Source of the DNA: a bacterium
GTDB lineage: Bacteria; Electryoneota; Electryoneia; Electryoneales; Electryoneaceae
Direction: 5' to 3'
Assembly: GCA_020444265.1 (NCBI GenBank)
Contig: JAHLLH010000003.1
Span: forward strand, 62,001-126,000
Length of the DNA: 64,000 nt
In this document: positions 8,090 to 57,007 of the stretch, piece by piece
Layout: each line of letters starts with the position of its first letter
Numbering within the stretch: position 1 is the first letter of the stretch
Program-made: the position numbers and the translations under genes
The notes under the pieces: model-generated
What the model was told of the DNA's origin: nothing
The model's database searches: none
The model's input: the letters and a program-made list of their open reading frames with translations, nothing else

Positions 8090-8165
8090 GTAATCCGGCA
8101 GTAGCCGGTGATTGATAGGAATCTGTTCTGCCCGACAGGCAGGCGCGAACCAGGAGGAGCACGCC

Positions 8166-9254: not shown

Positions 9255-9284
9255 TTGATTAGAGCTTCATTCCATAGATGGGCA

Positions 9285-9312
9285 ACCCGGGGCTTCAGCC
9301 CCGGGTTTCTTC
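9285..9312 (+). terminator. Rho-independent terminator after gcvT
   Basis: The 10-bp perfect stem ACCCGGGGCT / AGCCCCGGGT has a two-base loop and is followed by TTCTTC. It has the same tail (GGGTTTCTTCG) as the terminator after rpe. Confidence 0.85.
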
Positions 9313-9498
9313 GTTGCGAGCTGTTTGTTCAGCTTGACTTGGGTGGTCCTGGCAGTCCCCTGCCGAGACCCACTCCCAGGTTGTGAGGAATCAAGCTGGG
9401 AATGATCCGAGTTCCCCTCTCCGTACCGAACCCCGGAGCACGGCAAAAGAGGGTTCCTCGCCCTATATTCCATGTGCACGGCAATTCTGGAGACGTTG

Positions 9499-11285: not shown

Positions 11286-11358
11286 GCGCCATTAGCTCAA
11301 TTGGTAGAGCAGCGGACTCTTAATCCGTTGGTTCGGGGTTCGAGTCCCTGATGGCGCA
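11286..11358 (+). tRNA. tRNA-Lys (anticodon CTT), island integration site
   Basis: A full cloverleaf can be drawn: acceptor stem GCGCCAT / ATGGCGC, D-arm TAGCTCAATTGGTAGAGCA, anticodon loop with CTT (CTCTTAA) and T-arm GGTTCGAGTCCC-like, discriminator A. The anticodon CTT reads AAG (lysine). The bases after the discriminator are CT, not CCA, so the 3' end must be added by tRNA nucleotidyltransferase. The 3' half, from the anticodon loop on, is the left copy of a 43-bp repeat whose right copy (47365-47407) is followed by CA, giving CCA. The 3' half seen here is therefore island-derived. Confidence 0.95.
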
Positions 11359-11359
11359 C
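11317..11359 (+). repeat. attL: 43-bp direct repeat, left copy
   Basis: It begins CTCTTAATCCGTTGG and ends TGATGGCGCAC, and is identical over 43 bases to 47365-47407. It spans the anticodon loop, T-arm, acceptor 3' strand and discriminator of the tRNA. It is the left product of site-specific recombination. Confidence 0.95.
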
Positions 11360-11440: not shown

Positions 11441-11504
11441 ACCTCTGTTTTCCGTATATTAGCTCTATACCTATGGCATCATTTACCAAGTGCGGAGGTG
11501 GGCT

Positions 11505-19652: not shown

Positions 19653-21697
19653 GTAGCATGAATACCAATCTTGCCGGTCGGCTACGCAATACCAATCTAC
19701 CCTACAGTCATGGACTGGCCCCTCTATTCGAAGCCGTCGTGAACTCCATTCACGCCATTGACGAGGCGAAACTATCCCTTGGCGATGGACGGATCACCGT
19801 CGAGATCGTCCGAGACAAGCAGGAATCGCTGAAGCCAGAAGAAAAGTCGCCCGGGCGTGAACCTACTCCCGACATCCTGAACTTCAAGATCACGGACAAT
19901 GGTATCGGTTTCGACGAAAAAAACATGACTTCGTTCATGACGCTGGACAGTGATCATAAGGCTCATATTGGTGGACGTGGAGTTGGGCGGTTATTGTGGC
20001 TGAAAGCCTTCGATAGTGTCAGCGTGGAAAGCGTTTACCTCGGGGATGATGGAGATTTGAAGCGTCGCAAGTTCCAGTTCAATGAGCAAACTGGAGTCTC
20101 CAGCGAAGATCCCAAATCTGCAGCAGAAGGAAGTGTCCGTTCGACTATCGTCCAGCTCTCCTACTTCAAAGCGAGATATCGCGATGCGTCCAGGAAACAA
20201 ACAGACATCATCGCCCGCAATATTCTTGAACACTGCTTGTGGTATTTCATCCGACCAGGTGGCGCGCCGCAGATCACTGTGCATGATGAGGAGAATACAA
20301 TCAGGTTGGATGACCTGTACGAGGAAGTGATACACGCCGACGCGACGAGCAAAACGATCACGATAAAAGGAGAAGAGTTTGATCTAACCCATGTTCGCCT
20401 CGAGTCTATGATTTCGAAGAAACACTATGTGGCTTATGGTGCTGACAGTCGACTGGTGCTTGAAGAACACCTCCGTGGTAAAATTCCCGGTTTATTCGGC
20501 GCACTGAAGGACGACGAGGGTGAATTCATCTATGCCTGCTATGTAGCATCCAAATTCCTGGATTCACATGTACGTTCTGAGCGAACTGAATTTGATATAC
20601 CTGAGGAATCTCTTGGGCTTCTTGAGGGAGTAGAACTGACCTGGCCTAAAATCCAAGAAGGGGTCAGGAAGGAAATAGTCGAGCACTTGCAAGACTATCT
20701 GGACGAGAATAAAAAGCAGGGCAAAGCCCGGGTTGAGGAATTTGTCGCCCAAAAAGCTCCACGCTACCGACCTATCTTAAAACACATACCAGAAGATGAT
20801 CTCGCGGTCGACCCGGAGATGTCCGACAAGGATCTGGACATGACTCTGCACCGGCACCTGTCTGATATCGAGAACAAGATGTTGGAAGAAGGCCACGATA
20901 TCATGCACCCAAAAAAGGAAGAGAACTTCCCTGATTACAAGCGTCGTGTAGCGGAATACCTGAAGCGTGCTGGGGAGTTGAAGCAGTCCGACCTGGCTAA
21001 CTATGTGTCTCATAGGAAGGTGATTCTTGATCTGTTGGCCGTCGCCGTGCAGCGAAAAGACGATGGTACGTACAACAGGGAAGACATCATTCACAATCTG
21101 ATCATGCCGATGGGTGAGGATTCGAATGGCGTGATGTTCGAAAGCACTAACCTGTGGATTATCGACGAGAGTCTGGCATTCCACGACTACCTGGCTTCTG
21201 ATAAGCAGATCAGGAAAATGCCAATATCAGATTCCGAAGATCAAAAGGAACCGGATATAGTCGCGTTGAACGTCTATGACAATCCAATGCTGGTTGCAGA
21301 GGGTGAACGGCTCCCGCTAGCGGCGATCCAAGTTGTAGAAATCAAGAAGCCGATGCGCAACGATGCCCAAGAAGGGGAGGAAAAAGACCCCATCGAACAA
21401 GCATTGGGCTACCTGAAGAGAATCCGCAAGGGTGAGGTGACAACGGCAACTGGCCGACCGATCCCACAATCTGATAGTATTCCGGGGTTCTGTTACGTCC
21501 TAGCGGATCTCACTCCCAAGGTTAAAGAACGGTGTCTAATTCATGACGCAATTCGTACCAGCGACGGGCTAGGGTATTTCTTCTATCACAAAGGTCTGAA
21601 TGCGTATGTGGAGATCATTTCCTTCGACCGGCTCGTGAATCTGGCGAAGGAGCGGAACCGTGCGTTTTTCGACAAGCTGGGGCTGCCAACGAATTAG
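19649..21697 (+). CDS. GHKL ATPase with C-terminal PD-(D/E)XK-like domain
   Basis: The 682-residue protein starts with a Hsp90/MutL/MORC-type ATP-binding fold: N-box LFEAVVNSIHAI (E28, N32), Mg/adenine motif ITDNGIGFDEKN (D83-G87) and the lid GGRGVGRLLWLKAF (108-121). A long middle part follows. Near the end, DIVALN (D536) and VVEIKKP (E563-x-K565) fit the PD-(D/E)XK nuclease pattern, followed by DPIEQALGYLKRI. MutL/MORC-like ATPases linked to restriction systems have been described; this looks like such a protein with its own nuclease-like end. It is translationally coupled to hsdS (ATGA), so it is probably part of the restriction operon. Role (extra restriction, DNA loading or alternative effector) is inferred. 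Confidence 0.8.
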   Translation: MSSMNTNLAGRLRNTNLPYSHGLAPLFEAVVNSIHAIDEAKLSLGDGRITVEIVRDKQESLKPEEKSPGREPTPDILNFKITDNGIGFDEKNMTSFMTLDSDHKAHIGGRGVGRLLWLKAFDSVSVESVYLGDDGDLKRRKFQFNEQTGVSSEDPKSAAEGSVRSTIVQLSYFKARYRDASRKQTDIIARNILEHCLWYFIRPGGAPQITVHDEENTIRLDDLYEEVIHADATSKTITIKGEEFDLTHVRLESMISKKHYVAYGADSRLVLEEHLRGKIPGLFGALKDDEGEFIYACYVASKFLDSHVRSERTEFDIPEESLGLLEGVELTWPKIQEGVRKEIVEHLQDYLDENKKQGKARVEEFVAQKAPRYRPILKHIPEDDLAVDPEMSDKDLDMTLHRHLSDIENKMLEEGHDIMHPKKEENFPDYKRRVAEYLKRAGELKQSDLANYVSHRKVILDLLAVAVQRKDDGTYNREDIIHNLIMPMGEDSNGVMFESTNLWIIDESLAFHDYLASDKQIRKMPISDSEDQKEPDIVALNVYDNPMLVAEGERLPLAAIQVVEIKKPMRNDAQEGEEKDPIEQALGYLKRIRKGEVTTATGRPIPQSDSIPGFCYVLADLTPKVKERCLIHDAIRTSDGLGYFFYHKGLNAYVEIISFDRLVNLAKERNRAFFDKLGLPTN

Positions 21698-30100: not shown

Positions 30101-30291
30101 AAAGGAAGCTTCTGGAGATTAAGCAGCGGTTGATTGACAAGGGCAAGGATTCGCTTGTGAAAGCGACTCAGGGTAGAATAGAAAAATTGAAGGACAGAGT
30201 CGAACAGCAACGTACCCGAATCGAGCGTGGAAAAGAGATGAGGACAGACCATGAAGAAATTGCGATTGCTGTCATTTCTGTGGAGAAATAA
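27199..30291 (+). CDS. SNF2/RapA-like helicase
   Basis: A 1030-residue superfamily 2 ATPase of the SNF2 kind. Residues 1-50 are a small strand-rich part; then Walker A IADEVGLGKTIEAG (DEVGLGKT, 124-131), VIDEAHHLRN (DEAH 244-247), FLTATPIHN and, in the second lobe, LTSEVGGEGVDIQ and RLEQRIGRIDRLGQ. The last 350 residues are unlike RapA, with a C-terminal coiled coil (LDAKNQDRASVQLKMLDKHM). SNF2 ATPases move along DNA or remodel protein-DNA complexes, and several phage-defence systems use them. It begins 100 bases after hsdR and overlaps the Hsp70-like gene by 41 bases, so the two probably act together. Confidence 0.88.
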   Translation: MDEPVRVRKINDPTKVGVLTGREQMRGPGRILNVLYTNGSTAWVPEDQLEVIESFRLSPLDMLDKGQLGSPVDLRRTLAHAKISGKLTDVIYSMEATRTDFYAYQFKPVLKLLESPSNGLLIADEVGLGKTIEAGLIWTELRSRFDMHRLVVLCPSALREKWEDELKSKMGVRATLCDVRDVLKTLTSLDSQAEGFALICSMQGLRPPKKWEDNEDDRSARAMLARFLRSHENDERLIDLLVIDEAHHLRNPETKTNELGELFKAVSEYAVFLTATPIHNKNNDLFSLLHLLDPDTFTRMDVLETVLRANAPLVRARDILLNRESNLADVIEQIEIAKSHPLLYDNRQLAFIEAELAKEGLLQSKEGRGRLAYRLETVNLLAHAITRTRKREVKEWRVVREVISELVPISDPVEREFYDRVTGIVAEYAARSDANEAFLLSQPQRQMTSSMAAALHAWQTTGDMLEEVELEDNYKKAKKKIGPLVREVVERTRDVDLTLLEQNDSKFKKLNDILSNFVSEYPEEKVVLFSSFRETLQYLKRRLEESSLRTILLMGGQRETKADVIQRFQKSPGGTVLLTSEVGGEGVDIQFCRVMINYDLPWNPMRLEQRIGRIDRLGQMADSIQIWNIMYDGTIDAKIYTRLYNKLDLVKNALGDFEAILGEEIRKLTIELLSGNLTPEQQDERVEQTAQALENIRIQEQKLEENASSLIAYGNYILDRIKDAKHNHRWISKNDLKVYVTDFLKLKYPGCTIQQLAKGSDVYELSLSPDARFDLEEFVRSRRSSFVTRLTGVNTSPPKCRFDNHVTEYIIGSVEIISQFHPLVQMISQQIAESDEQLTPAIAAKVAWVAGLKVKPGVYVVAIERWSFKALQSIEKLAYSGASYDKPQSILTSAEVEGLVATVFERGQNWLEVVADIEVGRAYDIANEIVFLALQKNYEEYKEELDAKNQDRASVQLKMLDKHMQEQERKLLEIKQRLIDKGKDSLVKATQGRIEKLKDRVEQQRTRIERGKEMRTDHEEIAIAVISVEK

Positions 30292-31705
30292 GACTGAAGA
30301 TTCGTCCGAAGGCAATGGGGAAAGGAATGAGACTATGGCTACAACAGGCGGTGGTCGAGTCGAACTCGTAATCGGACTAGACTTTGGAACCTCTTCATCG
30401 AAAGTGGTTGTGCGTGCACCTGATCTCCAAGGCAGTCCAGCCTACCCTATGGACTTCGGCGATTTCGGGCATCCCGCCATGCCGCAACTTCTCCCGACTT
30501 CCCTCTGGGTAGATAGTAGTGGTATTTGCTCTCTTCGGAGTAAAGCTGGTAGCAGAATGTATCAAGATCTAAAGATAAAACTCCTAAGTGAGATGAACCC
30601 AAATCTTGCCGTTTCAATGAGCGTAGAGGGAGGGGATAACTTCGATGAAGCCAGGGCAGCGGCATATCTCGGATTGGTTCTTCAGAAGGTCAGGACGTGG
30701 TTTCTCATCACACACGAGAAACTAGTGGCGAGATTTGATAAGATTGTCTGGTCTTTTAATCTTGGAGTTCCATCTGCGAGCATGGGTGAAAACGCGGAGA
30801 ATGATCGGTTCTTCCGAGTAGGGAATGCAGCCTGGTTACTCTCGTTTGCCAAAGATGAGATTACGATCATCGGGGCATCCAAGTGCCTGGCAGACGTGGC
30901 TGGGAAAGCGAACAAACAACCTTTTAAAAAGTATGAGGCTGAAGAATGTTACTTCCAAATAATCCCTGAAATCGCTGGGGGAGCGATCAGCTATGCCATG
31001 TCTGAACTGCGCACAGAGGGTTTGCATCTTATGCTGGATTTTGGGGCATCGACTGTTGATGCCTGCAGTTTCATTCTCCGCAATCGTGAAGGAACTGATC
31101 GCTATTCACTCATGGTGACTGATGTGCAACCTTTGGGTGTTGCTGAAATGCACCGTAGGCAACTTGCAGCGCTTGAATTGGCTGAGATGGAAAATCCTGA
31201 GGACTCTGTTTACTATCAAAAGGTCGATCCACTCGATCCGTTCCCTGAAGAGCGGGATAACGTCGAAGAACCGTTTATTAGGGAAGTTGCTCAGGTAAAC
31301 GAACAGTTTCGTGATGAATGTTCTACTCATTTAAGGCGTGTGTTGGAAAAGACGAGAACGGAAAGAGCCCCTAACGAGGACGAATGGACTACCAAACCAT
31401 TGCCAGTGCTCCTGATTGGAGGTGGTAGTGTTGTTGACCAGTATGAAAGAGTTGTTGACGAGTTGGACTACTGGTTTCGGAACGAGCACATCCGCAACCA
31501 ACATGGGATGAAGCTGCTTCCCATGCCAGTTCAAAGTACCCCTGACGGTGAAGAGGTAGCATACATGCGACTGGCAGTAGCTTATGGACTTAGCTACCGG
31601 GAGTTCGATATAGGCGAAATTACTCCAGCTGATAGGATAGCGAACATGATAAAAGAGCCGCCCGCTGAGATCATGGGAACATACATAGGCTCGGAACAAA
31701 CCTGA
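30251..31705 (+). CDS. Hsp70/actin-fold ATPase
   Basis: The 484-residue protein has the sugar kinase/Hsp70/actin signatures: phosphate-1 IGLDFGTSSSKVVV (D44), phosphate-2 LMLDFGASTVDACSF (D263) and an adenosine-binding VLLIGGGSVVDQYE. The usual Hsp70 substrate-binding beta domain is absent, so it is a stand-alone nucleotide-binding domain. It may act as an ATP-driven partner or chaperone for the SNF2 helicase encoded just before. ATG 30251 (AGGA seven bases upstream) lies inside the helicase gene; ATG 30335 with AAAGGA is an alternative that avoids the overlap. The pair resembles a two-gene defence module; no named system is claimed. Confidence 0.8.
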   Translation: MKKLRLLSFLWRNKTEDSSEGNGERNETMATTGGGRVELVIGLDFGTSSSKVVVRAPDLQGSPAYPMDFGDFGHPAMPQLLPTSLWVDSSGICSLRSKAGSRMYQDLKIKLLSEMNPNLAVSMSVEGGDNFDEARAAAYLGLVLQKVRTWFLITHEKLVARFDKIVWSFNLGVPSASMGENAENDRFFRVGNAAWLLSFAKDEITIIGASKCLADVAGKANKQPFKKYEAEECYFQIIPEIAGGAISYAMSELRTEGLHLMLDFGASTVDACSFILRNREGTDRYSLMVTDVQPLGVAEMHRRQLAALELAEMENPEDSVYYQKVDPLDPFPEERDNVEEPFIREVAQVNEQFRDECSTHLRRVLEKTRTERAPNEDEWTTKPLPVLLIGGGSVVDQYERVVDELDYWFRNEHIRNQHGMKLLPMPVQSTPDGEEVAYMRLAVAYGLSYREFDIGEITPADRIANMIKEPPAEIMGTYIGSEQT

Positions 31706-31948: not shown

Positions 31949-33013
31949 GTGTCTACGAATCTTGAAAGATTACAGAATAGAATTAGCTTCCTCCGCGACG
32001 AAGCTATCTACCTCAGCGGTCGCGACCATGACCCCAGCGACTTCGCGGCGCTGCTGAAGAACGCGGGAGGCATGTTAGAGACATTTTTGAAGGCCCACAT
32101 ACATCCGACAGGAAGGAACTGGAACTTCGAACGGCTTATCGATGAGTTGGCATCAATGGGTATCTCTGCCCAGGGTATTAGCTCACTGCACTTGCTGCGG
32201 CGGCGGTATAACGCAGCGAAACATGATCCCGCGTATGACGCTGGCATGGATGAGGTGATTGAGGCACTGGATGGGGCTGTCTCTGCGTTGAGCGAGATGC
32301 TTGGGAGGAGCATTGGTAGTAGCGAGCATGACGCGGTTTCTGCTTACCGTCGCAGAGTATGGCTAGCATCATGGGACCACTTCGTCCACGGTGATGGTGA
32401 GGTCCATGTCATCTTGCCAGTAGCCGAAAACGATTGTGATTTCCCATTTTCGATCGACGTAATCTATCTCAAGGGACTCGCCTGGCCGGACGTTCTTCTA
32501 CCTCTCGGTGATTCAATACACCCGGCCCAAGGACTGATACCACAGAAGTTCCTCGACATGTGGGAAAAGGAAGAGGACTTTGCCGGGGCCCGAGTTTTCG
32601 ATGGTGTTTACAAGGATCTGCTACGCGCGCTAGTTGGCGCAGAGCTTCGCTTGGATTTGCTGCCTTTTCTCAAGCGAGAAAATGACCCGATGGCGATGCT
32701 GACGGCGATCGCGTTTGCGAGCGTCGACGCTTTGTCTGAACACGGTGCATTTTCGTCGATTGAGGAGATGAAGAATGAGGTGTTAGCGTACGGCGCACGA
32801 GACTATGCGGCGCCGCGTACATCACCGCTAGCAATCAAGGCGGCCGAACGCTTCTGCAGCCTCCTTGACGAAGTGCCGAGTGCTACGCAGTCAGAGATCT
32901 CCGGACCGCGCTTCGTGTCTGCACATCGATTCGAACAGGCACTTGCTCAAGCGGTTGCCCACGACGATGGTGCGGCCATTACAGACGAGCTTGAATTAGT
33001 GCTTCGCCTTTGA
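31949..33013 (+). CDS. HEPN-like protein of unknown function
   Basis: The 354-residue soluble protein starts at GTG 31949 behind GGGAGG. Residues 1-120 look like a HEPN helical domain: FAALLKNAGGMLETFLKAHI, then LIDELASMG and LHLLRRRYNAAKHDP, which holds an R-x5-H motif of the kind that is catalytic in HEPN RNases. The remaining 230 residues (AYRRRVWLASWDHFVHGDGEVH onward, trimmed) are not recognised. If active, it could be an RNase effector, but some HEPN domains only bind partners. It stands alone on the plus strand between the repeat and the transporter operon. Confidence 0.55.
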   Translation: MSTNLERLQNRISFLRDEAIYLSGRDHDPSDFAALLKNAGGMLETFLKAHIHPTGRNWNFERLIDELASMGISAQGISSLHLLRRRYNAAKHDPAYDAGMDEVIEALDGAVSALSEMLGRSIGSSEHDAVSAYRRRVWLASWDHFVHGDGEVHVILPVAENDCDFPFSIDVIYLKGLAWPDVLLPLGDSIHPAQGLIPQKFLDMWEKEEDFAGARVFDGVYKDLLRALVGAELRLDLLPFLKRENDPMAMLTAIAFASVDALSEHGAFSSIEEMKNEVLAYGARDYAAPRTSPLAIKAAERFCSLLDEVPSATQSEISGPRFVSAHRFEQALAQAVAHDDGAAITDELELVLRL

Positions 33014-33334: not shown

Positions 33335-34462
33335 ATGAAGAATAAGCTGATCGGCGTGATCGTGGTGGTCATCGTGACTGCGGCGGCGTTGGTATTGATC
33401 CTTCGGAAACCTGGCGCGGGTGATCAGGACATTACTGTCGGTGCACTCCTGCCCCTTACAGGACAGGGAGCCGCCTATGGAGAGGCCGCAAAGAGCGGCA
33501 TGGACCTGGCCTTGCAGCAGGTGAACTCCAGCGGAGGCATCGATGGAAAAACGCTACGCATCATCTATGAGGATACGCAAGGCGACCCCAAAGTCGGGGT
33601 GTCCGCGTTCCAGAAACTGGTCACGGTCAATCACGTCCCGGCGGTTCTAGGCGACCTGCTCAGCTCTGTAACGTTGTCGGTTGCCCCCATCGCGAATAGG
33701 CGTGAAGTAGTTCTCTTATCTCCGGCCTCGTCCTCACCGAAGCTTACTGAGGCGGGCGCATATGTATTCAGGAATTGCCCCTCCGATGTCTATGAGGGTA
33801 CAGTGATGGCAGACTATGCCTCCAAAACCCTGGGACTGAAGCGCGTTGCGATCTTGCGTATCAACAATGAATACGGCGTCGGGATAGGGTCAGTTTTCAA
33901 GAAGGAGTTTGTCGAGAACGGCGGAACAATCGTGGCCGAGGAGTCCTATGCTGAAGACGCCACAGATTTCCGCACCCAAATTGCGAAGGTCGCGGCTCAG
34001 AACCCCCAGGCTATCTACCTGCTTGGGTACAAGCAAATGGGCTACATCTTACGGCAAGCGAGCGAACTTGGCCTGAAGACCCAGTTCTTGAGCACCGTCA
34101 CATTTGAAGACCCCGAAATCCTGAAGCTTGCCGGAGATGCTGCAGATGGGGTCATCTACTCTGCAAGCAAGTTCAGTCCTGACAACGCAGACGAAACGGT
34201 CCAGCGTTTCGTGGACGCGTATGAGGCCGCTTACCAGTCCGAACCGAACATATTTGCAGGCTTGAGCTATGATGCGGCGCAAATCCTCGTCATTGCCATG
34301 CGTGATGGCGGCACAAGTGGCCCGCAGATTCGGGAAGCACTGCACAGGGTGAAGGATTATCCGGGGGTAGCTGGCGAGACAGCCATTGACGAAAATGGTG
34401 ATGCAGTGCTTACCCCGGTTCTCAAGACGGTAAAGGACGGCGAGTTCGTCTTCCTCAAGTAG
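33335..34462 (+). CDS. Branched-chain amino-acid-type ABC transporter, substrate-binding protein
   Basis: Periplasmic or membrane-tethered binding protein of the LivJ/receptor-ligand-binding type (375 residues). A hydrophobic N-terminal anchor (IGVIVVVIVTAAALVLIL) has no lipobox Cys, and is followed by ITVGALLPLTGQGAAYGEAA, GMDLALQQVNSSGGIDGKTL and IYEDTQGDPK, all classic for the family. A strong AGGAGG site precedes ATG 33335. It is the first gene of an eight-gene operon. The ligand is uncertain: this family also carries amides, urea and aromatic compounds, and the odd neighbours hint at a special substrate. Confidence 0.92.
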   Translation: MKNKLIGVIVVVIVTAAALVLILRKPGAGDQDITVGALLPLTGQGAAYGEAAKSGMDLALQQVNSSGGIDGKTLRIIYEDTQGDPKVGVSAFQKLVTVNHVPAVLGDLLSSVTLSVAPIANRREVVLLSPASSSPKLTEAGAYVFRNCPSDVYEGTVMADYASKTLGLKRVAILRINNEYGVGIGSVFKKEFVENGGTIVAEESYAEDATDFRTQIAKVAAQNPQAIYLLGYKQMGYILRQASELGLKTQFLSTVTFEDPEILKLAGDAADGVIYSASKFSPDNADETVQRFVDAYEAAYQSEPNIFAGLSYDAAQILVIAMRDGGTSGPQIREALHRVKDYPGVAGETAIDENGDAVLTPVLKTVKDGEFVFLK

Positions 34463-34477
34463 ACAAGGTCAGTCAGC

Positions 34478-35557
34478 GTGGACAAATCCCGTTACTTCGA
34501 CTTAATGCGAGAGACATCGGAAGAGGCCTTGCCTCTAATCCGGCGGCACATCGACTCGTTGCGAGAAGTTGAGCCCGAGCTTCACGGCATCATGCGCTAC
34601 GTGTTGGATCGTCGGAATGGCGAGCTGATGCTGAAACCGTTTCTTTTAAGGTTGACGTACGAACTGTGCGGAGGAACAGACTGGCACAAGACAATTCCAG
34701 TCGGGGCCGCATTCGAAATGCTAAACCTCTCCTCCTACCAGGCGAACGCCGCGTTCGACGACAAGCATGCGGTTCTTTCAACGCCTCAAAAATGGTCCCA
34801 ATTCATGGCGGCAATGATTACCCGGGAACTTGCGCTTGAGTGCCTGGCGGCTGCTGAACAGGACTTCGCTGCTTCATTGCTTGACGCAGTGCGGACCGAT
34901 CTGAGCACTTGCAACAAGCATATCTACATTGCGCAACACTACGATATGAACGTCCTGAATTTGGAAAATCTTGGACACTATGCGGACAGAGACGCCTTCC
35001 TCGTTGACTACAACGCACGATGCTATCATGGGAGCGGTGTTTTCAATGGTAACTGCGCTCGTGCGGGGGCAATCTTGGCAGGAGCATCGGCTAATGCCGC
35101 ATCTAGTGCTCTTCGCTACGGGGAAGAATTCGGCACGGGAATCCAGGTGATGAATGACTTGGCCGATTTCGTACCTCCGGGCGTCGACGGAGTCGTCGGG
35201 CGTGGGTTCCAAGATCAGCTCAGCGACATTAGAAACGGACGTTTGACCTTCGGATGCTATCTGCTTTTCAGAGAGGAAGGGCGAAGCGGTGAAGACCTCC
35301 TGTCGTTACTGAAACATGGGGACGGCTTGAACGAGAGAGAACTGCAAGAAGTCGCTGCTCTCCTTGTTAACTCTGGAGCATTGGATACGGTGACAGGATA
35401 TGCTAAAGGATTTTCGGCTCGCGCAAAGGATGCCTTGTCTGGCTTTCCAGATTCCCTTGAGAAATCAGCTCTCTCACTCATGGTTCGTGTGTGCCACGAC
35501 AACAAGTTTGTCAAAGCGCTGCGCAAGTGTTCCAGTGAGAAAGGTGAGGTTTTATGA
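34478..35557 (+). CDS. Divergent polyprenyl-synthase-fold protein
   Basis: The 359-residue protein resembles trans-isoprenyl diphosphate synthases: MLKPFLLRLTYELCGG, AAFEMLNLSSYQANAAFDDK and, later, FGTGIQVMNDLADF followed by QDQLSDIRNGRLTFGCYLL. The Asp-rich motifs are degenerate. The first is FDDKHA (93-98) rather than DDxxD; the second is NDLAD (226-230), with SDIRNGR in place of the usual DDxxGK. It may make or bind an isoprenoid or may have lost catalysis. Start is GTG 34478, 15 bases after livJ. It overlaps the next gene by 4 bases (ATGA), so it belongs to the transporter operon. Confidence 0.7.
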   Translation: MDKSRYFDLMRETSEEALPLIRRHIDSLREVEPELHGIMRYVLDRRNGELMLKPFLLRLTYELCGGTDWHKTIPVGAAFEMLNLSSYQANAAFDDKHAVLSTPQKWSQFMAAMITRELALECLAAAEQDFAASLLDAVRTDLSTCNKHIYIAQHYDMNVLNLENLGHYADRDAFLVDYNARCYHGSGVFNGNCARAGAILAGASANAASSALRYGEEFGTGIQVMNDLADFVPPGVDGVVGRGFQDQLSDIRNGRLTFGCYLLFREEGRSGEDLLSLLKHGDGLNERELQEVAALLVNSGALDTVTGYAKGFSARAKDALSGFPDSLEKSALSLMVRVCHDNKFVKALRKCSSEKGEVL

Positions 35558-36642
35558 GACTAGAGCTACAAAAAGGCCGGGATGCTATTAATAATCGCAA
35601 CCCATGGGCCATCGCCTCGGTTGTTCTGGGGGCCGTTGGCCCACCAGGGTTCGTCACCAGACTAACGAATGATCCCATATTATGGCTGCTGTCAGTGCTA
35701 GTGGGCTTCATACTAGTACCATTCACCCTTGCATTGATCGGGCGTAACCAACTCCAAGCGTCTGCCACTGCCGAGGAACACAGTCGAGAAGAGTCTGTCG
35801 CTGCTGGAGAGTTTGCCACCACTGGAGAGTCTGTCGCTGCCAGAGAGTCTGTCGCCGCCGAGGAGCACATTCGAGAAATGCGTAGGTATGTACTCGAACA
35901 ATCTCACTTGGGGTGCATGCCAGCGATTACACGAGTCGCGAAGTTATCTACAGCGAACTTCACAACGACCATCGGTTTCGATGTGAAACTTAATGAGTAT
36001 TTAGCAATGCTGCAAGAGAGCGCAGACTACGAACATTTGCGAGATGTCACCTTTCTGGCGCGTGTAGAGCCCTCCGATTGGGGACGAGAAGAAGACGGGG
36101 GACAAAAAGGAATGGCATGGGTTTTTCTGCGGAATCTTGGTAGGATCAAAGACAAACATCCAAACATCAAAATGAGGCGCATTCTTGTTTTGGAAGACAG
36201 TATACATGACGTCGAAAAGCAGAAAACCGAAGACTACAATTATTTCAAAAACAAACACAAAGAAGTAAAAGTAGACTTGATTCACATGACACCAGCACAG
36301 TTGGCATCGGCACGATTAACGATGAGGCCAGATCATCAGAACGGTGATTGGCAAGAAGACATTGCCGTTTTCATAGGAGAAGACGACGACCACCGCGGTT
36401 GGATTCTCGAGTCTAATTACAACTATAACATGGACCCATCTCCTGAGACGATTGTAAAAACCTGGATGTGGCGTGATGAGAACGTCTGTATGGAGCATTT
36501 TCCTCGGCTATTTGCTGTTGTCTGCAACCTATACAACTATGAGATGCCCGGCCAATTCATCCATAGGGTTCAAGAAGATGGGTACTCGAACGCACCAGAT
36601 CAGGACTATCTGCTGAAATCATGCATTATAACGAGCGGTTAG
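35554..36642 (+). CDS. Two-helix membrane protein with repeat linker, unknown function
   Basis: The 362-residue protein has two N-terminal hydrophobic helices at about 18-35 (WAIASVVLGAVGPPGF) and 43-62 (ILWLLSVLVGFILVPF), then a polar linker made of six-residue repeats (ESVAAG, EFATTG, ESVAAR, ESVAAE) and a cytoplasmic domain of about 250 residues that I cannot assign. That domain has alternating strands and helices (MRRILVLEDSIHDVEKQK, EVKVDLIHMTPAQLAS, DIAVFIGEDDDHRGWI) and may be an alpha/beta enzyme or sensor fold. It is coupled to the isoprenoid-synthase-like gene by ATGA and is followed 23 bases later by the phosphatase-like gene. Confidence 0.6.
   Translation: MRLELQKGRDAINNRNPWAIASVVLGAVGPPGFVTRLTNDPILWLLSVLVGFILVPFTLALIGRNQLQASATAEEHSREESVAAGEFATTGESVAARESVAAEEHIREMRRYVLEQSHLGCMPAITRVAKLSTANFTTTIGFDVKLNEYLAMLQESADYEHLRDVTFLARVEPSDWGREEDGGQKGMAWVFLRNLGRIKDKHPNIKMRRILVLEDSIHDVEKQKTEDYNYFKNKHKEVKVDLIHMTPAQLASARLTMRPDHQNGDWQEDIAVFIGEDDDHRGWILESNYNYNMDPSPETIVKTWMWRDENVCMEHFPRLFAVVCNLYNYEMPGQFIHRVQEDGYSNAPDQDYLLKSCIITSG
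35791..35862 (+). repeat. Four 18-bp tandem repeats inside the membrane-protein gene
   Basis: Four units in frame begin GAGTCTGTCGCTGC (unit 2 diverged to GAGTTTGCCACCAC), each coding six residues. The blocks on both sides (GCCGAGGAACACAG / GCCGAGGAGCACAT with TCGAGAA) are also similar, so a larger duplication is likely. Changes in copy number would lengthen the linker without breaking the frame. Confidence 0.75.
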
Positions 36643-36665
36643 TCGAAATAGGGAGGGCCTGAACT

Positions 36666-37301
36666 ATGCGGATTCTCTTTGTCCGAAACGCCGAGCACGC
36701 AAATCACGGGAAAGGCAAGTGGCCTGAAAAGGTGACGGCACTCTCTGCTGTAGGCGCACAACAAGCTGCTGCACTTGCAGGAGTGCTGGCAAATGGTGTC
36801 AATGGGCGCATTCTTTCTTCACCAACTGAGCGCGCATTAGCAACGGTCCGTCACCTTGCTGAGAGAATGAACTGCCAAGTTGAACATGACGCTGCGTTTG
36901 CGCCTCTGAATGTAGGTGGACATGTAGGGAAGCCCTATGAGGAGACCCGCAAGGCCTTTGGGGATATAATCTTCACTGAGATACTCACCAACCCATCAGC
37001 GGACCGGCTGTATTTTGATGGTGGTGAGACCCTGTCTGAAATGGCGGAACGCGCATGGGCACGCGTTCTCGAACTGGTCGATCAAGATGGTGAGAGTAAC
37101 AAGGTCATCGTGATCTGCAGCCATGAAGAAGTTATTGGAGCACTACTCTGTAAGATGGCTGGAATGCCGTTACCCAATCTCTGGTGGTGGGGAGGAAGGT
37201 TCACTCCCCCTTTGTACGCAAACGTGTCCGAGGTCTTGTGGACAGGTGCGAACTGGCGGCTGGTTAGTTTCGGCAACATATCACATTTGCACGCCGTATG
37301 A
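36666..37301 (+). CDS. Histidine-phosphatase-fold protein lacking the catalytic His
   Basis: The 211-residue protein has the phosphoglycerate-mutase/histidine-phosphatase layout: MRILFVRNAEHANHG, LSAVGAQQAAALAGVL, ILSSPTERALATVRHL, YFDGGETLSEMAERAWARV and VIVICSHEEVIGALL. The family signature RHG is RNA here (R7-N8-A9), so the His that carries the phosphate is Asn; R56 and the second His (H153) remain. It is probably not a working phosphatase and may bind a phosphorylated ligand or a partner. It lies between the membrane protein and livH, overlapping livH by 4 bases. Confidence 0.78.
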   Translation: MRILFVRNAEHANHGKGKWPEKVTALSAVGAQQAAALAGVLANGVNGRILSSPTERALATVRHLAERMNCQVEHDAAFAPLNVGGHVGKPYEETRKAFGDIIFTEILTNPSADRLYFDGGETLSEMAERAWARVLELVDQDGESNKVIVICSHEEVIGALLCKMAGMPLPNLWWWGGRFTPPLYANVSEVLWTGANWRLVSFGNISHLHAV

Positions 37302-38176
37302 TTACGCAACTCACGGTCAATGGCATCATAGCAGGCTGTACCTATGCATTGGTCGCCATGGGCTTCACCATCATCTATGGAACAGTTCGGTTCTTTCATT
37401 TCGCACATGGTGCTATCGTTGCTGTCGCTGCCTATACAGCTTGGGCGTTCATGGCTTACCTCGGCATGCCGTTCGCGATGGCTGCCATCATTTCGGTTGT
37501 TGCAGCGGGTGGGCTGGGCGTATTGATGGATCGGTTCGTCTATCGCCCGCTTCGTCAACGGAAGTCCCCGAGCCTCATCCTGCTACTCGCTTCGTTCGGA
37601 ATGTTCCTCGTGGTCCAGAACATACTCCAGTTCGTCTTTGGGTCAGATATTAAAATGCTGCGGGGCGGTGCTGCATCTGAGGGACACAGGTTGTTCGGTG
37701 CCGTCATTACCAGCACGCAACTCTGGATCGTCGCTTCAAGCGTGATTCTCGCAGTGGCGGCGCTCTGGTTTCTTCGCAAGACGGGCTTCGGAAAGTCAAT
37801 CCGCGCCGTTGCCGACGATCAGGTCGCGGCAAGCCTGGTGGGCATCAACTCCGAGCGAACAGTCAGCATGGCATTCTTCCTGGGGTCGGCCTTGGCTGGC
37901 GTCGCGGGCATTCTTGTCGCGCTAGAATCGAATGTCTATCCGGCCATGGGGCTGAATGCAGTGATCAAAGGGATCATCGCCGCGCTGATTGGCGGAATGG
38001 GCAGCATACCTGGCGCTTTGCTTGGGGGCCTATTGATAGGGTTCGCCGAGAATGTGGGAGTGTGGGGTATTTCGTCCGGGTGGAAGGATGCGATCTCGTA
38101 CGCGGTTCTCGTTGCGTTTCTATTGTTTCGTCCCGGCGGCATTTTCCATACAGATTTGGAACTAAGAAAGGTCTGA
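37298..38176 (+). CDS. livH: Branched-chain amino-acid-type ABC transporter permease (LivH family)
   Basis: Inner-membrane permease of 292 residues with about eight hydrophobic helices. Family features are QLTVNGIIAGCTYALVAMGF, IIYGTVRFFHFAHGAIVAV, the EAA-like loop with GKSIRAVADDQVAASLVGI, and KGIIAALIGGMGSIPGALLG. It pairs with the next permease, LivM. It starts inside the end of the phosphatase-like gene (ATGA) and the next gene starts directly after its stop. The gene symbol marks family membership only; the substrate is not proven. Confidence 0.92.
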   Translation: MITQLTVNGIIAGCTYALVAMGFTIIYGTVRFFHFAHGAIVAVAAYTAWAFMAYLGMPFAMAAIISVVAAGGLGVLMDRFVYRPLRQRKSPSLILLLASFGMFLVVQNILQFVFGSDIKMLRGGAASEGHRLFGAVITSTQLWIVASSVILAVAALWFLRKTGFGKSIRAVADDQVAASLVGINSERTVSMAFFLGSALAGVAGILVALESNVYPAMGLNAVIKGIIAALIGGMGSIPGALLGGLLIGFAENVGVWGISSGWKDAISYAVLVAFLLFRPGGIFHTDLELRKV

Positions 38177-39046
38177 ATGGAGTACATCATCCATATCCTT
38201 GTGCTTGCGGGGCTCTTCGTCATCATGACGGTGAGCCTGAACATAGTGCTTGGATTCGCCGGGCTTCCGGCGATGGGACAGTCTGCTTTCTTTTGTGTGG
38301 GTGCTTACGCGTCATCTCTTGCTTGCTTGCATTTGGGACTGTCCCCGTGGATTACTCTTTGTCTTGCCGCTGGTTTGGCTTGGGGAGTCGGTTGGCTGGT
38401 GAGCCTGAGTGCGTCGCGACTAGCTGGGGACTTTCTTGCATTGGCGACATTCGGACTTGCTGCGGTAACTTACTCCCTGGCTGTTAACTGGGATGCGATG
38501 ACGCACGGCCCATTGGGGCTATCTGCAATCCCTCCTTTCTCTGCCTTCGGTTATACGCTTGATACGGCGTGGTCTTTCTTCCCCATCGTCACTTTCTTCT
38601 GCTTGGTCACAATTCTTGCGTCGCGTCGTCTCGTTACTTCCCCGTTCGGTCGAGTTATTCAGGGGATGCGTGAAAGCAACATGCTTTGTGAATCGGTCGG
38701 TATAGACGTTGGACGTTTCACGCGAACGGTGTTTTCCACCGGCGCTCTCTTCGCTGGAATTGCAGGGGCTCTGTATGCCCACTACGTGACATACATCGAC
38801 CCTACCAGTTTCACGCCGATGGAATCGGTGACGATCCTGCTCATGGTGGTGTTCGGGGGCATGGGCAGCATCTCCGGATCGGTTCTAGGGGCCACAATTC
38901 TTGTTGTCTTGCCCGAAGGACTGCGTTTTATAGGCCTACCAAGCTCTTTAGCGGCTCCGGTTAGGCAAATGCTGTATGGGAGCATTCTTGTAGCACTCAT
39001 GCTGATTCGTCCCAGTGGACTCCTGGGGAAGTACAAATGGCGATGA
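38177..39046 (+). CDS. livM: Branched-chain amino-acid-type ABC transporter permease (LivM family)
   Basis: Second permease subunit (289 residues), with the typical LivM opening VSLNIVLGFAGLPAMGQSAF, FGRVIQGMRESNMLCESVGI (EAA-like contact with the ATPases) and SVTILLMVVFGGMGSISGSV. Its ATG follows the livH TGA with no gap, and its end overlaps livG by 10 bases. The length is somewhat short compared with E. coli LivM (about 425) but normal for the short LivM group. Confidence 0.92.
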   Translation: MEYIIHILVLAGLFVIMTVSLNIVLGFAGLPAMGQSAFFCVGAYASSLACLHLGLSPWITLCLAAGLAWGVGWLVSLSASRLAGDFLALATFGLAAVTYSLAVNWDAMTHGPLGLSAIPPFSAFGYTLDTAWSFFPIVTFFCLVTILASRRLVTSPFGRVIQGMRESNMLCESVGIDVGRFTRTVFSTGALFAGIAGALYAHYVTYIDPTSFTPMESVTILLMVVFGGMGSISGSVLGATILVVLPEGLRFIGLPSSLAAPVRQMLYGSILVALMLIRPSGLLGKYKWR

Positions 39047-39822
39047 ATACCTCTGTCCTACAATTGCACGATCTATCCGTGTCTTTCGACGGAGTGCATG
39101 CCGTGGTCGACTTATCGGTCGAAATCCCGTCGGGTTGTATCGTTGCGCTGATTGGTCCGAATGGAGCGGGAAAGACAACGGTATTCAATCTGGTCTGCGG
39201 TTACGTTGTCGCCAACAAAGGAAGCTTCTCAATAGCAGGGGTAGACGCCACAGGTAGAGTCCCTGAACAGGTTGCACGTCTCGGCTTGGGCCGCTCATTC
39301 CAAGATGGCAAGGTCTTCGAACAAATGACCGTGCTGGACAATGTACTGTTGGGAATGCGCGATCCAAAGGCTGAATCGATGACGGCGGCCCTCTTCCGGC
39401 GTGGGGCGTTGCAGGAGGGTAAAGAAGAACAAACACGGCGAGCTATGCAGCTACTGCAGGAGGCCTCGCTCGAGTCGAAGGCGGAATCGCTGGCATGCGA
39501 CCTGTCCTACGGACAACGGAAGTTGCTGGAACTGTGTCGAGTCCGGGCATTCGAGCCTTCGGTTTACCTGTTGGATGAGCCCTTCTCTGGCCTCTTCCCA
39601 GACACTGCGACTGAAATGACGAGGATGATACGGGGGCTTCGTGAAGCGGGAAAGACAGTGGTCTTCATTGAGCATGACATACAGACCGTTTCGGACCTAT
39701 CTGACCGCGTCGTTGTCCTCGATTTCGGGCGCAAGATAGCGGACGGAACACCCGAAGAGGTTCTGAATGATCCAGCGGTGCTGGACGCATATCTCGGAAG
39801 GGTCGGTCACGATGCTCCTTAA
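39037..39822 (+). CDS. livG: Branched-chain amino-acid-type ABC transporter ATPase (LivG family)
   Basis: Cytoplasmic ATPase subunit (261 residues). Walker A is GPNGAGKTT, the signature is LSYGQRKLLELCR (a LSYGxxRxLE type usual for LivG), and Walker B is VYLLDEPFSGLFPD, followed by the switch His in VVFIEHDIQTVSD. The C-terminal stretch DFGRKIADGTPEEVLNDPAV is typical of LivG. It overlaps livM and livF by about 10 bases each, indicating tight translational coupling. Confidence 0.93.
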   Translation: MAMNTSVLQLHDLSVSFDGVHAVVDLSVEIPSGCIVALIGPNGAGKTTVFNLVCGYVVANKGSFSIAGVDATGRVPEQVARLGLGRSFQDGKVFEQMTVLDNVLLGMRDPKAESMTAALFRRGALQEGKEEQTRRAMQLLQEASLESKAESLACDLSYGQRKLLELCRVRAFEPSVYLLDEPFSGLFPDTATEMTRMIRGLREAGKTVVFIEHDIQTVSDLSDRVVVLDFGRKIADGTPEEVLNDPAVLDAYLGRVGHDAP

Positions 39823-40534
39823 AGTGAACAGTCTGAGCGCGGGATACGGCCATACGGAGGCCGTCAAAGATGTGACATTCAACATCGACGTGGGCCACAT
39901 CACCGCCCTGATAGGTCCGAACGGGGCTGGAAAGTCCACGTTGCTGAAGGCGTTAAGTGGTACGCTGGAATCCTACGGTGGGACGATTACGCGAGGGGAC
40001 ATACTGCTGGATGAGGAACCAATTGCCGGGCTACGTGCCGATCAACTGGTGGCGAAGGGTTTGACGCTGGTTCCTGACGGTCGACGCCTATTTACGCACA
40101 TGACGGTGCAGGAGAATTTGGAAATGGGCGGGTTTACCGTGAGAGACAAGGAACTCTTCGGCATCAATTTCAACCGCGTATTGACGCTCTTCCCGGAAAT
40201 TGCTCCCTTACGCCCTCGGAAGGCGGGAAGCCTGTCCGGAGGCGAGCAACAGATGCTCGCCATCGGACGCGCCTTGATGATCAACCCTAAGCTTCTCCTG
40301 ATTGATGAGCCGTCTCTGGGTCTTGCGCCACGTCTACTTGATAATGTTTTCGAGAAGATCGCGAATCTGAGGAACGAGCAGATCATCGGGGTCGTGGTCG
40401 TGGAGCAGAATGTTCACGAAGTTCTCAAAATTGCCGATAGTGTGGTAGCCTTGAAGCTTGGTGAGGCGGCATACGTCGGTAACGCAGCGGATTTGCGCAA
40501 CGATGATGCGAAGCTGAAAGAGGTCTTTTTGTAA
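39812..40534 (+). CDS. livF: Branched-chain amino-acid-type ABC transporter ATPase (LivF family)
   Basis: Second ATPase subunit (240 residues): Walker A GPNGAGKSTLLK, signature LSGGEQQMLAIGRALM, Walker B LLLIDEPSLGLAP and switch His replaced by Gln as is normal in LivF (VVVEQNVHEVL). I start it at ATG 39812, ten bases after GGAAGG and inside the end of livG, rather than at the longer in-frame 39767. It is the last gene of the operon; no clear terminator follows. Confidence 0.93.
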   Translation: MLLKVNSLSAGYGHTEAVKDVTFNIDVGHITALIGPNGAGKSTLLKALSGTLESYGGTITRGDILLDEEPIAGLRADQLVAKGLTLVPDGRRLFTHMTVQENLEMGGFTVRDKELFGINFNRVLTLFPEIAPLRPRKAGSLSGGEQQMLAIGRALMINPKLLLIDEPSLGLAPRLLDNVFEKIANLRNEQIIGVVVVEQNVHEVLKIADSVVALKLGEAAYVGNAADLRNDDAKLKEVFL

Positions 40535-47364: not shown

Positions 47365-47407
47365 CTCTTAATCCGTTGGTTCGGGGTTCGAGTCCCTGAT
47401 GGCGCAC
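47365..47407 (+). repeat. attR: 43-bp direct repeat, right copy
   Basis: Identical over 43 bases to 11317-11359. It is the displaced 3' half of the host tRNA-Lys gene. It continues with CA, so the original tRNA gene encoded its CCA end; the left copy continues with T. It is not a complete tRNA. Confidence 0.95.
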
Positions 47408-54051: not shown

Positions 54052-56982
54052 TTAGCGAACCAGTAACAGCCGCATGGTTCGCTGATTTCCTGCCTGGTTC
54101 AACCTGACAAAATAGAGCCCCGACGCAAGTTCCGCTCCAGCTGAACTCCGCCCCGACCAGGTGAAATGGTACCTCCCCGCCGCACGGTTTTTCCAGGTAG
54201 TCCCGTACACCTTTCTGCCGAGTAAATTGAAGATCGTCAGCTTGACGTCGGATGTCGCATCTACGTCAAACAAGATTTGAGTGCTGCTGTTGAATGGATT
54301 GGGGTAGCTGAAGAGGGGATAACCCTCACCTGGAACAGGGGGAGGGGTACCTGGTGGTGGGACAAAGCCTGCCTGGTTCTCAAAGAGTCCGATATCAATA
54401 TAATTGGTCGCACCAATTCCGCTGTTGAACACTGTGCCGATGTCGAGACGGGGATTACCTGCACCATCGAAGATTGGTATGTCTATTCCATATCCACTAT
54501 CGATCAGGGGCGAATTTGTGCTGGGATAATACAAGCCATTTGTCCCGTCCACAAAGCCAGGCGTGGGTCCGGTGACAAGGAAAATACCAGTATCAACTGA
54601 ATCCTCTGGCACATAGCACCAACCGAGGTGTAGCTGGGATTGATCGATTTCCCAATCTCTTTGGTTTGCCCAGAAAACGACATTCTTGATCTCCACGCGC
54701 CCATGGAAGGCATTGTCAGCATCAAGTGCGCTTCCATTGTAAACCAAAAGGCCATTTCGGATGTCGAGGTGAGCACTTCCTCCAGTGAGATCAAGTCCTG
54801 TTTCGTATCCCTCTACGAGTAGATTCCAGAATCTGATCGAATCAACCTCAAGAGCGCTCTCCAATCCAGTCTGTCCTGCTGATCCATGCAAGAAGAGACG
54901 GTTCACATACACGCTTTCCGGATCGCCCGCGAGTCGAATTCCAGAACCGGCAAACTGATTAATTTCGCAGTCTACTAGGGCGAGAGAATCCGCGTTTGAA
55001 CCTTCGTACGAGAGGAATCGACAGCTGGCGTCTGTCAACAATGCTGCCACATTCGAAAAGTGGGCAGAACTTCCTTGAAGTTGAATGAGGTCGCCACCTG
55101 TGGAGTAGAACTGGCTCGACTGAATGTCGAGGGCAGCACGGTTCCCGGTGAGGAATGCACCTTTGGATCGTACCGTGGTCGACGCAATTGCGAGCGTTGC
55201 GCCATCATTCAGACGGAGGGTTATTCCCGGGTCAATTGATGTATAGGTCAATGTCAGTGATGCAGTCTCACCTTCGATGAGAATCTCATTTCGTAGGGGG
55301 GCTTCGGGGTTCACCGCACCAATGTGTACGGAATCAGCTTCCGTTCCATCAAACCTCAGCGTTCCATTTATTGTGAGTGAAGAACTATCCTCGAATAGGA
55401 GTGACACCCCAGGGTCAATGCTCACCTCTGCACCTTCGGTGACGACAATATCACCGCTGATGAGGTAAGGGCTGTCCGAGACCTGCAAAACAGTCGTCCC
55501 CGAAAATGATTCATCGATTCTTGTCGTTGCACGAGGCAGGGTTAAGGTGCGAAAGAAACGGAAACTGCGGGTCGCCGGCCAACCATCCGTTTCCGCGTAA
55601 ACATTCCAGTACCATAGTCCCGGTGGGAGGCCTCCAACGGCTAGGGTTGTATCAGTCCCTGCATCAAAACTCTGAGCGGTACCAAAGGTCTTATTTGTGT
55701 CAACTGTTACGCGATATCGTATTGCTGCCCCATTCGCGATCTTTGCCGGTTCCCAGGAGAGGAGCAGAGTGTCATTTCGTACGAAGGAGGGATGCAGGTC
55801 AAAGGGTAAAGGGGTCTCAACATTTGCTTCGACCAGGTACTCGCCTCGTTCCTCAAGTCTTGCTGGAATGGTCCGGATGGCGTTGTGAAAATCATCAAGG
55901 GTGAACTGTTTATTCGGGTCTTCCTCGATCGCGTCGGACAACAGTGTGTCAAGCTGGTCAACAGTTTCCTGATACCATTGCCTGGTCATCAAGCTGTCGA
56001 GCATGCCTGCCATATGGGAAAAGATTTCGTCCCGCATCTGGTCGTCTTGCCAACAACGGACGATCAGCGGGTTAATTTCCTCGAGGGCGGGAGAAGAGGT
56101 CAGGTAATAAAAAGGTTGATGATACATGCTGCCCCAAGGGAAGTTGCTTCGATCCATATCCCAAGGCACAATCGACCACTTCCCATCGGCAGACAAGTCA
56201 TGGACGAGATAGTAATTATGGTAGTAGGTTGAGGAGTTGCAGATAATGGCGTTAAGAGCCATGTGTCGTGCCAAAAGTGGACGATCAAATACATCCCCGA
56301 GGTCGGAGTAGAAATTCGAGCTTGGCGTGACATGGATCCATTCAATCAGGTCGTTCAAGTCGTAAAAGCCAGTCTCAGTGTTTGTCTCCTTCTCCCACAA
56401 CTCTTCAACCGGTTCACCCAGGTTGAGCATGGATCGATCTCGTGCTGCTTTATAAAGTGTGGCACCCTCGGGGAAGCCCATACGATCCAGCGAGATGTCG
56501 TCTACCTGTTCTACGTCCAGGTAGAGGCCAAAGTAGTCACCATTGATGAAGAGGCGGGTATACCAGCAGCGAGATGAGGGAAGACCGACATTCGCAAATG
56601 CCGAGTAAGCGAGAAACTCTTTGGCAAATGTTGGATCGAGCCATTCTGAGTTCAGGTTAATTTTGTCACGTTCTCCAAATCGTTCATCTTTATCGAAATT
56701 GATCTTGTACGACTTTTTTGGATAATTCCGACTCGAGTCACCCCTTAGACGAAGTCGGACATCATGCCAGACATTTCCATTGAACTGGAATTCGCATGGG
56801 ATATAAATATCCTCTTGAGGGTTATCATGGATCCGTGCAAGGTCGACCGGATCACAAAACACGTGGTAATCACGAACCTGAATCGGTGCTGCACAGAGCA
56901 GTATCGGCAGGATCAGGAGGGATATCCAACCCGTCATGAGGCGATGTGGAAAGCGATATTGTTGAAGCAGGATTGGAAGCAT
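54052..56982 (-). CDS. Secreted CotH-kinase protein with beta-helix and C-terminal sorting domain
   Basis: The 976-residue protein starts with a signal peptide (LMTGWISLLILPILLCAAPI), then a CotH kinase domain: RLRGDSSRNYPKKSYKINF (about 78-96), NLNSEWLDPTFAKEFLAY and WSIVPWDMDRSNFPWGSM (catalytic Asp pair). It continues with a fibronectin-like part, a parallel beta-helix (VTEGAEVSIDPGVSLLFEDS) and a C-terminal YPNPFNSSTQILFDV...GLYFVRL sorting domain. CotH kinases phosphorylate secreted proteins. I start at ATG 56982 (AGGG upstream), 26 bases after the second CotH gene, instead of the longer frame from 57108. It acts at or outside the cell surface. Confidence 0.87.
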   Translation of the reverse strand: MLPILLQQYRFPHRLMTGWISLLILPILLCAAPIQVRDYHVFCDPVDLARIHDNPQEDIYIPCEFQFNGNVWHDVRLRLRGDSSRNYPKKSYKINFDKDERFGERDKINLNSEWLDPTFAKEFLAYSAFANVGLPSSRCWYTRLFINGDYFGLYLDVEQVDDISLDRMGFPEGATLYKAARDRSMLNLGEPVEELWEKETNTETGFYDLNDLIEWIHVTPSSNFYSDLGDVFDRPLLARHMALNAIICNSSTYYHNYYLVHDLSADGKWSIVPWDMDRSNFPWGSMYHQPFYYLTSSPALEEINPLIVRCWQDDQMRDEIFSHMAGMLDSLMTRQWYQETVDQLDTLLSDAIEEDPNKQFTLDDFHNAIRTIPARLEERGEYLVEANVETPLPFDLHPSFVRNDTLLLSWEPAKIANGAAIRYRVTVDTNKTFGTAQSFDAGTDTTLAVGGLPPGLWYWNVYAETDGWPATRSFRFFRTLTLPRATTRIDESFSGTTVLQVSDSPYLISGDIVVTEGAEVSIDPGVSLLFEDSSSLTINGTLRFDGTEADSVHIGAVNPEAPLRNEILIEGETASLTLTYTSIDPGITLRLNDGATLAIASTTVRSKGAFLTGNRAALDIQSSQFYSTGGDLIQLQGSSAHFSNVAALLTDASCRFLSYEGSNADSLALVDCEINQFAGSGIRLAGDPESVYVNRLFLHGSAGQTGLESALEVDSIRFWNLLVEGYETGLDLTGGSAHLDIRNGLLVYNGSALDADNAFHGRVEIKNVVFWANQRDWEIDQSQLHLGWCYVPEDSVDTGIFLVTGPTPGFVDGTNGLYYPSTNSPLIDSGYGIDIPIFDGAGNPRLDIGTVFNSGIGATNYIDIGLFENQAGFVPPPGTPPPVPGEGYPLFSYPNPFNSSTQILFDVDATSDVKLTIFNLLGRKVYGTTWKNRAAGRYHFTWSGRSSAGAELASGLYFVRLNQAGNQRTMRLLLVR

Positions 56983-57007
56983 GAATGCCCTGTGAATCGT
57001 CTGCTCG

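Follow-up and report, generated by a model that had tools for sequence, protein, structure and literature searches.

Liv/HAAT-type importers (LivKHMGF) are usually regarded as nutrient uptake systems, and their five subunits are encoded in the order K-H-M-G-F. Systems in which a specificity block is swapped while the core stays constant are known from hsdS exchange in type I restriction and from polymorphic-toxin cassettes. In the Bacillus pheromone locus ComQXPA a polyprenyl-synthetase homologue, ComQ, co-varies with a receptor in an exchangeable block. ComQ requires its first Asp-rich motif (FARM) and carries an NDxxx pseudo-form of the second one (SARM) (PMC5331326). Here we describe an operon at 33335-40534 of a 64,000-nucleotide stretch of DNA (the window) from a bacterium of the Electryoneaceae (contig JAHLLH010000003.1, positions 62,001 to 126,000), which has the same five subunits in the same order as LivKHMGF but carries additional genes between K and H. 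The same layout recurs in at least eight phyla, the substrate-binding protein (SBP) co-varies with the enzyme encoded in the inserted block, whole blocks are swapped between close strains, and the window copy is carried on an integrative island. We see about even chances that the operon belongs to a cross-phylum Liv/HAAT class in which a constant core is combined with an exchangeable specificity cassette and which senses or imports a compound related to the cassette enzyme. Unlike in hsdS and polymorphic-toxin exchange, the swapped block here consists of a solute receptor, a membrane or effector-type protein and an enzyme.

The eight open reading frames (ORFs) of the window operon lie on a single strand (plus) at the coordinates at which they were first described. 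The SBP (33335-34462; Peripla_BP_6, E 9e-65; 3td9, E 7e-51) is of the Liv/HAAT type and has an N-terminal helix as membrane anchor, without a lipobox. After a gap of 15 bp follows a protein of the polyprenyl-synthetase fold (34478-35557, hereafter synthase), which overlaps by 4 bp with the gene of a membrane protein (35554-36642). A further gap of 23 bp leads to a histidine-phosphatase-like protein (36666-37301; His_Phos_1, E 1.5e-25). Its gene overlaps by 4 bp with that of a LivH-like permease of the FFHFAHG clade (PermH, 37298-38176; BPD_transp_2 and clade alignment), which abuts the gene of a LivM-like permease (PermM, 38177-39046; BPD_transp_2 and tree). PermM overlaps by 10 bp with a LivG-like ATPase (39037-39822; ABC_tran and BCA_ABC_TP_C), and this one by about 11 bp with a LivF-like ATPase (39812-40534; ABC_tran) if the latter starts at 39812 (MLLKVNSL...), which, judged from the junction sequence, is likelier than the mechanical ORF start at 39767. 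Neighbouring genes of the operon overlap or lie no more than 23 bp apart. The original prediction of a complete transporter within an eight-gene operon was borne out: all eight ORFs and, by Pfam, all five Liv subunits (one Peripla_BP_6 SBP, two BPD_transp_2 permeases, two ABC ATPases) were found. Its statement that all genes are coupled by overlaps was right about a tight operon and slightly overstated with regard to the two gaps and the abutting permease genes. None of the NCBIfam equivalog cut-offs for Liv or Urt proteins was reached (LivH 156.5 of 379 bits, UrtB 147.3 of 250.3, UrtD 192.8 of 304.1), so that the transporter has to be called Liv-like, without assignment to the known leucine or urea systems; the UrtB and UrtD scores led us to reject a urea transporter. 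Scans of the operon for promoters and terminators gave no signal above shuffles. The GC content is lowest in the membrane-protein gene (48%), a shift that is not diagnostic.

The class was found through PermH and its FFHFAHG motif, which first gave 18 loci and then about 30 more when 39 to 395 genomes of each phylum were searched with profiles (loci are numbered with the prefix L). The layout was counted in those 28 related Liv operons in which the junction of SBP and PermH could be read. In 26 of these cassette-clade loci the SBP and PermH are separated by 1.8-4.4 kb filled with genes. In ordinary Liv operons on the fringe of this clade (L112, L124, L126, L128) the gap measures 51-70 bp and contains no extra genes. 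According to Pfam, a typical cassette encodes a membrane or effector-type protein together with one to three enzymes. Polyprenyl synthetases are present in seven loci of five phyla (the window, L015, L019, L089, L093, L103, L104), with both Asp-rich motifs intact in six of them. Radical SAM enzymes, including B12-binding, SPASM and lysine-aminomutase types, were found in L004, L059, L086, L087, L088, L096, L097, L102, L105, L107 and L110. SAM methyltransferases occur in L008, L059, L085, L097 and L110, and one precedes PermH in L003, where the contig begins just upstream. SDR proteins are found in L009 and L011 and an alanyl-tRNA-synthetase-like protein in L098. The effector-type proteins comprise HD-CE (L085), metallophosphoesterase (L107) and sigma-54-type AAA proteins (L011, L109). 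A description of this operon architecture was not found in the open-access literature, which is weak evidence given that only open-access work was covered.

These counts bear on the view that the window holds an ordinary Liv operon with unrelated acquired genes, degenerate passengers without a common function. Loss of the catalytic motifs in the window synthase and phosphatase would fit this view, as would the phosphatase, which we saw in no other locus of the class, and the ordinary relatives lacking such genes. We nevertheless consider it very unlikely, given that the position is occupied in 26 of 28 clade operons, that six of the seven polyprenyl synthetases, spread over five phyla, retain both motifs, and that SBP and enzyme are congruent beyond shuffles. 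The odd extra genes pointed out in the original prediction are no random assortment, given that six other operons have polyprenyl synthetases in the corresponding position. They are absent from ordinary Liv operons and present, with varying enzymes, in the cassette clade; the phosphatase was seen only in the window.

In the SBP tree, loci with the same enzyme type group together across phyla; in the PermM tree, loci of the same phylum do. Over the same 16 shared loci we counted 5 changes of enzyme type on the SBP tree (shuffled mean 8.6; as low in 4 of 2000 shuffles) and 9 on the PermM tree (1688 of 2000), numbers that serve as a guide and not as a preregistered test because the enzyme types were assigned with the trees partly in view. 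Changes of phylum amounted to 8 on the PermM tree (26 of 2000 shuffles) and 9 on the SBP tree (250 of 2000). Within the SBP tree, the SDR group joins KSB1 with Gammaproteobacteria (support 100/99) and the polyprenyl-synthetase group joins Armatimonadota, Planctomycetota and Nitrospirota (97/90). L014 and L088 (B12 radical SAM) pair with support of 100/98, L097 and L110 (radical SAM plus methyltransferase) with 98/95. When the polyprenyl-synthetase loci were forced into one clade, the approximately unbiased (AU) test rejected this for PermM (p 4e-32) and did not reject it for the SBP (p 0.07). The link between SBP and enzyme persists where gene order or the third gene has changed: in L009 (SBP, membrane protein, SDR) and L011 (SBP, SDR, AAA) the SDRs are 53% and the SBPs 52% identical, and the same holds for L015, L019 and L093 versus L103 and L104, and for L014 and L088. 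Since order and third gene vary while SBP and enzyme stay together, the link is not only a physical one.

Several points weigh against a functional reading of these data. Adjacent genes that moved together would yield congruence of SBP and enzyme without any function, although the changed orders and partners argue otherwise. The enzyme types were assigned by ourselves from Pfam and the sample is small (16-19). A single SBP clade of all seven polyprenyl-synthetase loci is tolerated only marginally at p 0.07, and the window SBP itself falls outside the polyprenyl-synthetase clade. The membrane proteins of the cassettes can be related to one another only weakly. Finally, FARM and the RHG motif of the phosphatase are lost in the window, which makes a producer role of this copy unlikely. 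With these points taken into account, we still lean towards a match between the SBP ligand and the chemistry of the enzyme, in which the enzyme product, its substrate or a derivative would be recognised; the same layout with different enzymes in many unrelated phyla suggests such a match. For the polyprenyl-synthetase cassettes we infer a ligand that is derived from prenyl units and is not an amino acid. For the lysine-aminomutase-like cassette of L087, a beta-amino acid is a candidate ligand.

Co-variation of SBP and enzyme is equally expected if the operons serve uptake and salvage, with the SBP binding an exogenous compound that the cassette enzymes convert after import, so that the cassettes represent catabolic or salvage specialities on one transporter. 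The core is that of a normal importer, and Liv-type SBPs bind many non-amino-acid compounds. Salvage fits less well with the one to three enzymes per cassette, which are often of biosynthetic type (polyprenyl synthetase, radical SAM, methyltransferase), or with the membrane or effector-type protein (sigma-54-type AAA, metallophosphoesterase, HD-CE), which is needless for catabolism, and the window enzymes look dead. We therefore rate salvage as unlikely, though as the strongest of the competing explanations.

Exchange of whole cassettes was seen directly in KSB1. L009, L010 and L087 share their upstream (93.8-94.7%) and downstream (98-99.9%) DNA and carry three unrelated blocks of SBP, membrane protein and enzyme. 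Between L009 and L087, the downstream DNA is 99.94% identical over 3.2 kb and the upstream DNA 93.8%, with unrelated cassettes in between; L010 represents a third allele. Remnants of the PermH 5' end, 45-92 codons long, are located at cassette ends in L016, L017, L018 and L088. In L088 a truncated PermH (codons 1-92) at 7819-8094 is followed by a full PermH at 9147-10031, and this duplicate is the scar of a cassette insertion. The truncated pieces suggest that exchange may proceed via homology at the start of PermH.

A separate observation concerns the PermH gene. An identical tract of nine T (CTTTTTTTTTGCCTC) is located near codon 60 in seven LivH-like genes from different genomes (L105, L107, L108, L109, L110, L125, L127), where the sequence after it continues in the wrong frame although the ORF is conserved otherwise; L108 lies at a contig end, so that the visible part there covers only the surroundings of the tract. 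In L102 and L103 the corresponding sequence reads T9GGCC and is in frame. The tract is a candidate for programmed slippage or phase variation.

The window SBP is most similar to the SBPs of polyprenyl-synthetase cassettes (46% identity to L019, 45% to L015). In the SBP alignment, the amino-acid-binding structures 3td9, 3ip5 and 4gnr and the ordinary L112 and L113 have an acidic residue in the GDG motif, which holds the alpha-ammonium group in amino-acid-binding relatives. This residue is Val in the window SBP (VTF) and is also replaced in all other SBPs of polyprenyl-synthetase cassettes (TVAM, TVAF, TTVM, TGLL). Binding of branched-chain amino acids in the canonical manner is unlikely given this replacement, and an ordinary amino acid is an unlikely ligand of the window SBP. 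The missed NCBIfam cut-offs, the replaced acidic residue and the membrane anchor set the window system apart from LivKHMGF. Wherever the N-terminus of a cassette SBP could be read, it contained either a lipobox-like Cys or a helix that is not cleaved off, which would be in keeping with a surface receptor. The pocket agrees with the earlier suggestion of an unusual compound; export as the direction of transport and a phosphate-linked ligand, both also proposed, found no support or stayed unproven.

The synthase matches Pfam polyprenyl_synt with E 5e-7 (29.5 bits versus a gathering score of 27). Its AlphaFold model is confident (pLDDT 78, pTM 0.84), adopts the all-alpha isoprenoid-synthase fold and matches solved polyprenyl diphosphate synthases over the full length in Foldseek (E ~1e-10, TM score at most 0.76). 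In the motif alignment, FARM reads NAAFD and SARM reads NDLAD, compared with DDxxD at both positions in the six other cassette copies, to which the window synthase is about 20-24% identical. In their motifs the six resemble the octa/decaprenyl and GGPP synthases, whereas the window copy lacks the first DDxxD. A polyprenyl-transferase cargo of Family-2 encapsulins was rejected (NF041169, 50.2 of 450 bits). In the phosphatase, aligned to 4ij5, the RHG motif reads RNA and the catalytic Glu is missing; it is probably a pseudo-phosphatase, as had been proposed. Synthase and phosphatase are probably both inactive or altered in function, and activity of the two found no support or stayed unproven, key catalytic residues being absent from both.

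As a functional analogue ComQXPA comes closest, and the window synthase shares the NDxxx SARM with ComQ, but it has lost FARM. Membership in the ComQXPA family fails: the window locus has neither a precursor-peptide gene nor a histidine kinase domain, and other cassettes have other enzymes or intact DDxxD SARMs. With no gap above 23 bp in the cassette there is no room for the gene of a ComX-like peptide, which was therefore rejected.

According to a transmembrane (TM) scan, the membrane protein consists of one or more N-terminal hydrophobic helices, a repeated ESVAA-type linker and a cytosolic domain of about 250 amino acids; 18-bp repeats are located at 35790-35861 within its gene. It had no match in Pfam, NCBIfam or PADLOC. 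In a leave-one-out search of 57 sequences with a hidden Markov model, it showed a weak link (E 1e-4) to the membrane proteins encoded in other cassettes. A PLD-like fold, which visual inspection of the strand pattern and a trace MIT_C match (E 0.31) had suggested, was dropped because the AlphaFold prediction was poor (pLDDT 40). For the window synthase and membrane protein, we found no close relatives among plasmids, phages, contigs of genomes and of viruses, or 39 genomes from the phylum of the window.

The operon is part of the cargo of a complete 36-kb integrative island (11317-47407) at a tRNA-Lys(CTT) gene (11286-11359). A 43-bp perfect direct repeat (att) marks its ends, on the left within the tRNA gene (11317-11359, plus strand) and on the right as a copy of the tRNA 3' end (47365-47407, plus strand). 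A tyrosine integrase is encoded at 11490-12548 (plus strand; Phage_integrase, E 1.4e-32). Integrase and perfect duplication of the tRNA 3' end confirm that the operon is island cargo, as initially proposed. The cargo further includes type I restriction-modification genes (HsdM, HsdS and a restriction subunit) together with genes for a GmrSD-type protein and for a DrmD-like helicase.

This company raises the question of self/non-self recognition or defence, in which the imported or sensed compound would trigger the membrane or effector-type protein against phages or competitors and the enzyme would mark self or neutralise the compound. Beyond the island genes, L104 adjoins DNA-methylase/Vsr-like genes and L101 seems to have an AbiE-like toxin-antitoxin pair (reverse strand) in the cassette site directly before PermH, both judged from ORF starts without family searches. 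HD-CE and metallophosphoesterase effectors resemble conflict-system proteins, and the cassettes are swapped between strains. On the other hand, PADLOC gave no match to known defence systems for the window cassette proteins, and the island location may be hitch-hiking. We consider defence quite unlikely, less probable than salvage.

Independently of the operon, three large proteins without Pfam match are encoded in the restriction-modification/DrmD cluster (19649-21697, 30251-31705, 31949-33013), one of which lies between the genes of HsdS and the GmrSD-like protein; they are possible unrecognised defence components. Elsewhere in the window, two adjacent CotH-kinase-like secreted proteins with C-termini of the type IX sorting type are encoded on the minus strand (54052-57108 and 57008-59695).

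The constant core of the class comprises the two permeases and two ATPases, and the cassette the SBP and the genes up to the first permease. If the class indeed senses or imports a compound related to the cassette enzyme, this enzyme would most likely make a diffusible compound, perhaps a self-made signal, which the membrane-anchored SBP would capture at the cell surface and pass to the importer; the membrane or effector-type protein would convert ligand status into a response. Cassette exchange would then switch the 'language'. The window copy with its degenerate synthase and phosphatase may be a receiver or regulatory variant and not a producer. We put forward only tentatively that the enzyme is a signal synthase, the SBP and ABC transporter a receptor-importer, and the membrane or effector-type protein the output. 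Somewhat more doubtful still is the wider proposal of a polymorphic small-molecule recognition class, in which cassettes pairing a compound-making enzyme with a membrane-anchored receptor for its product would sit on a constant Liv-type core across many uncultivated phyla, sometimes on defence islands. In these operons the transporter remains the same, whereas receptor, biosynthetic-type enzyme and membrane or effector-type protein are exchanged together, which points to matched chemistry of receptor and enzyme. Should the enzyme be the source of the ligand, the operons would constitute private small-molecule channels of uncultivated phyla, a family in which the ligand class would be readable from the cassette itself: prenyl, methylated or a radical-SAM product.

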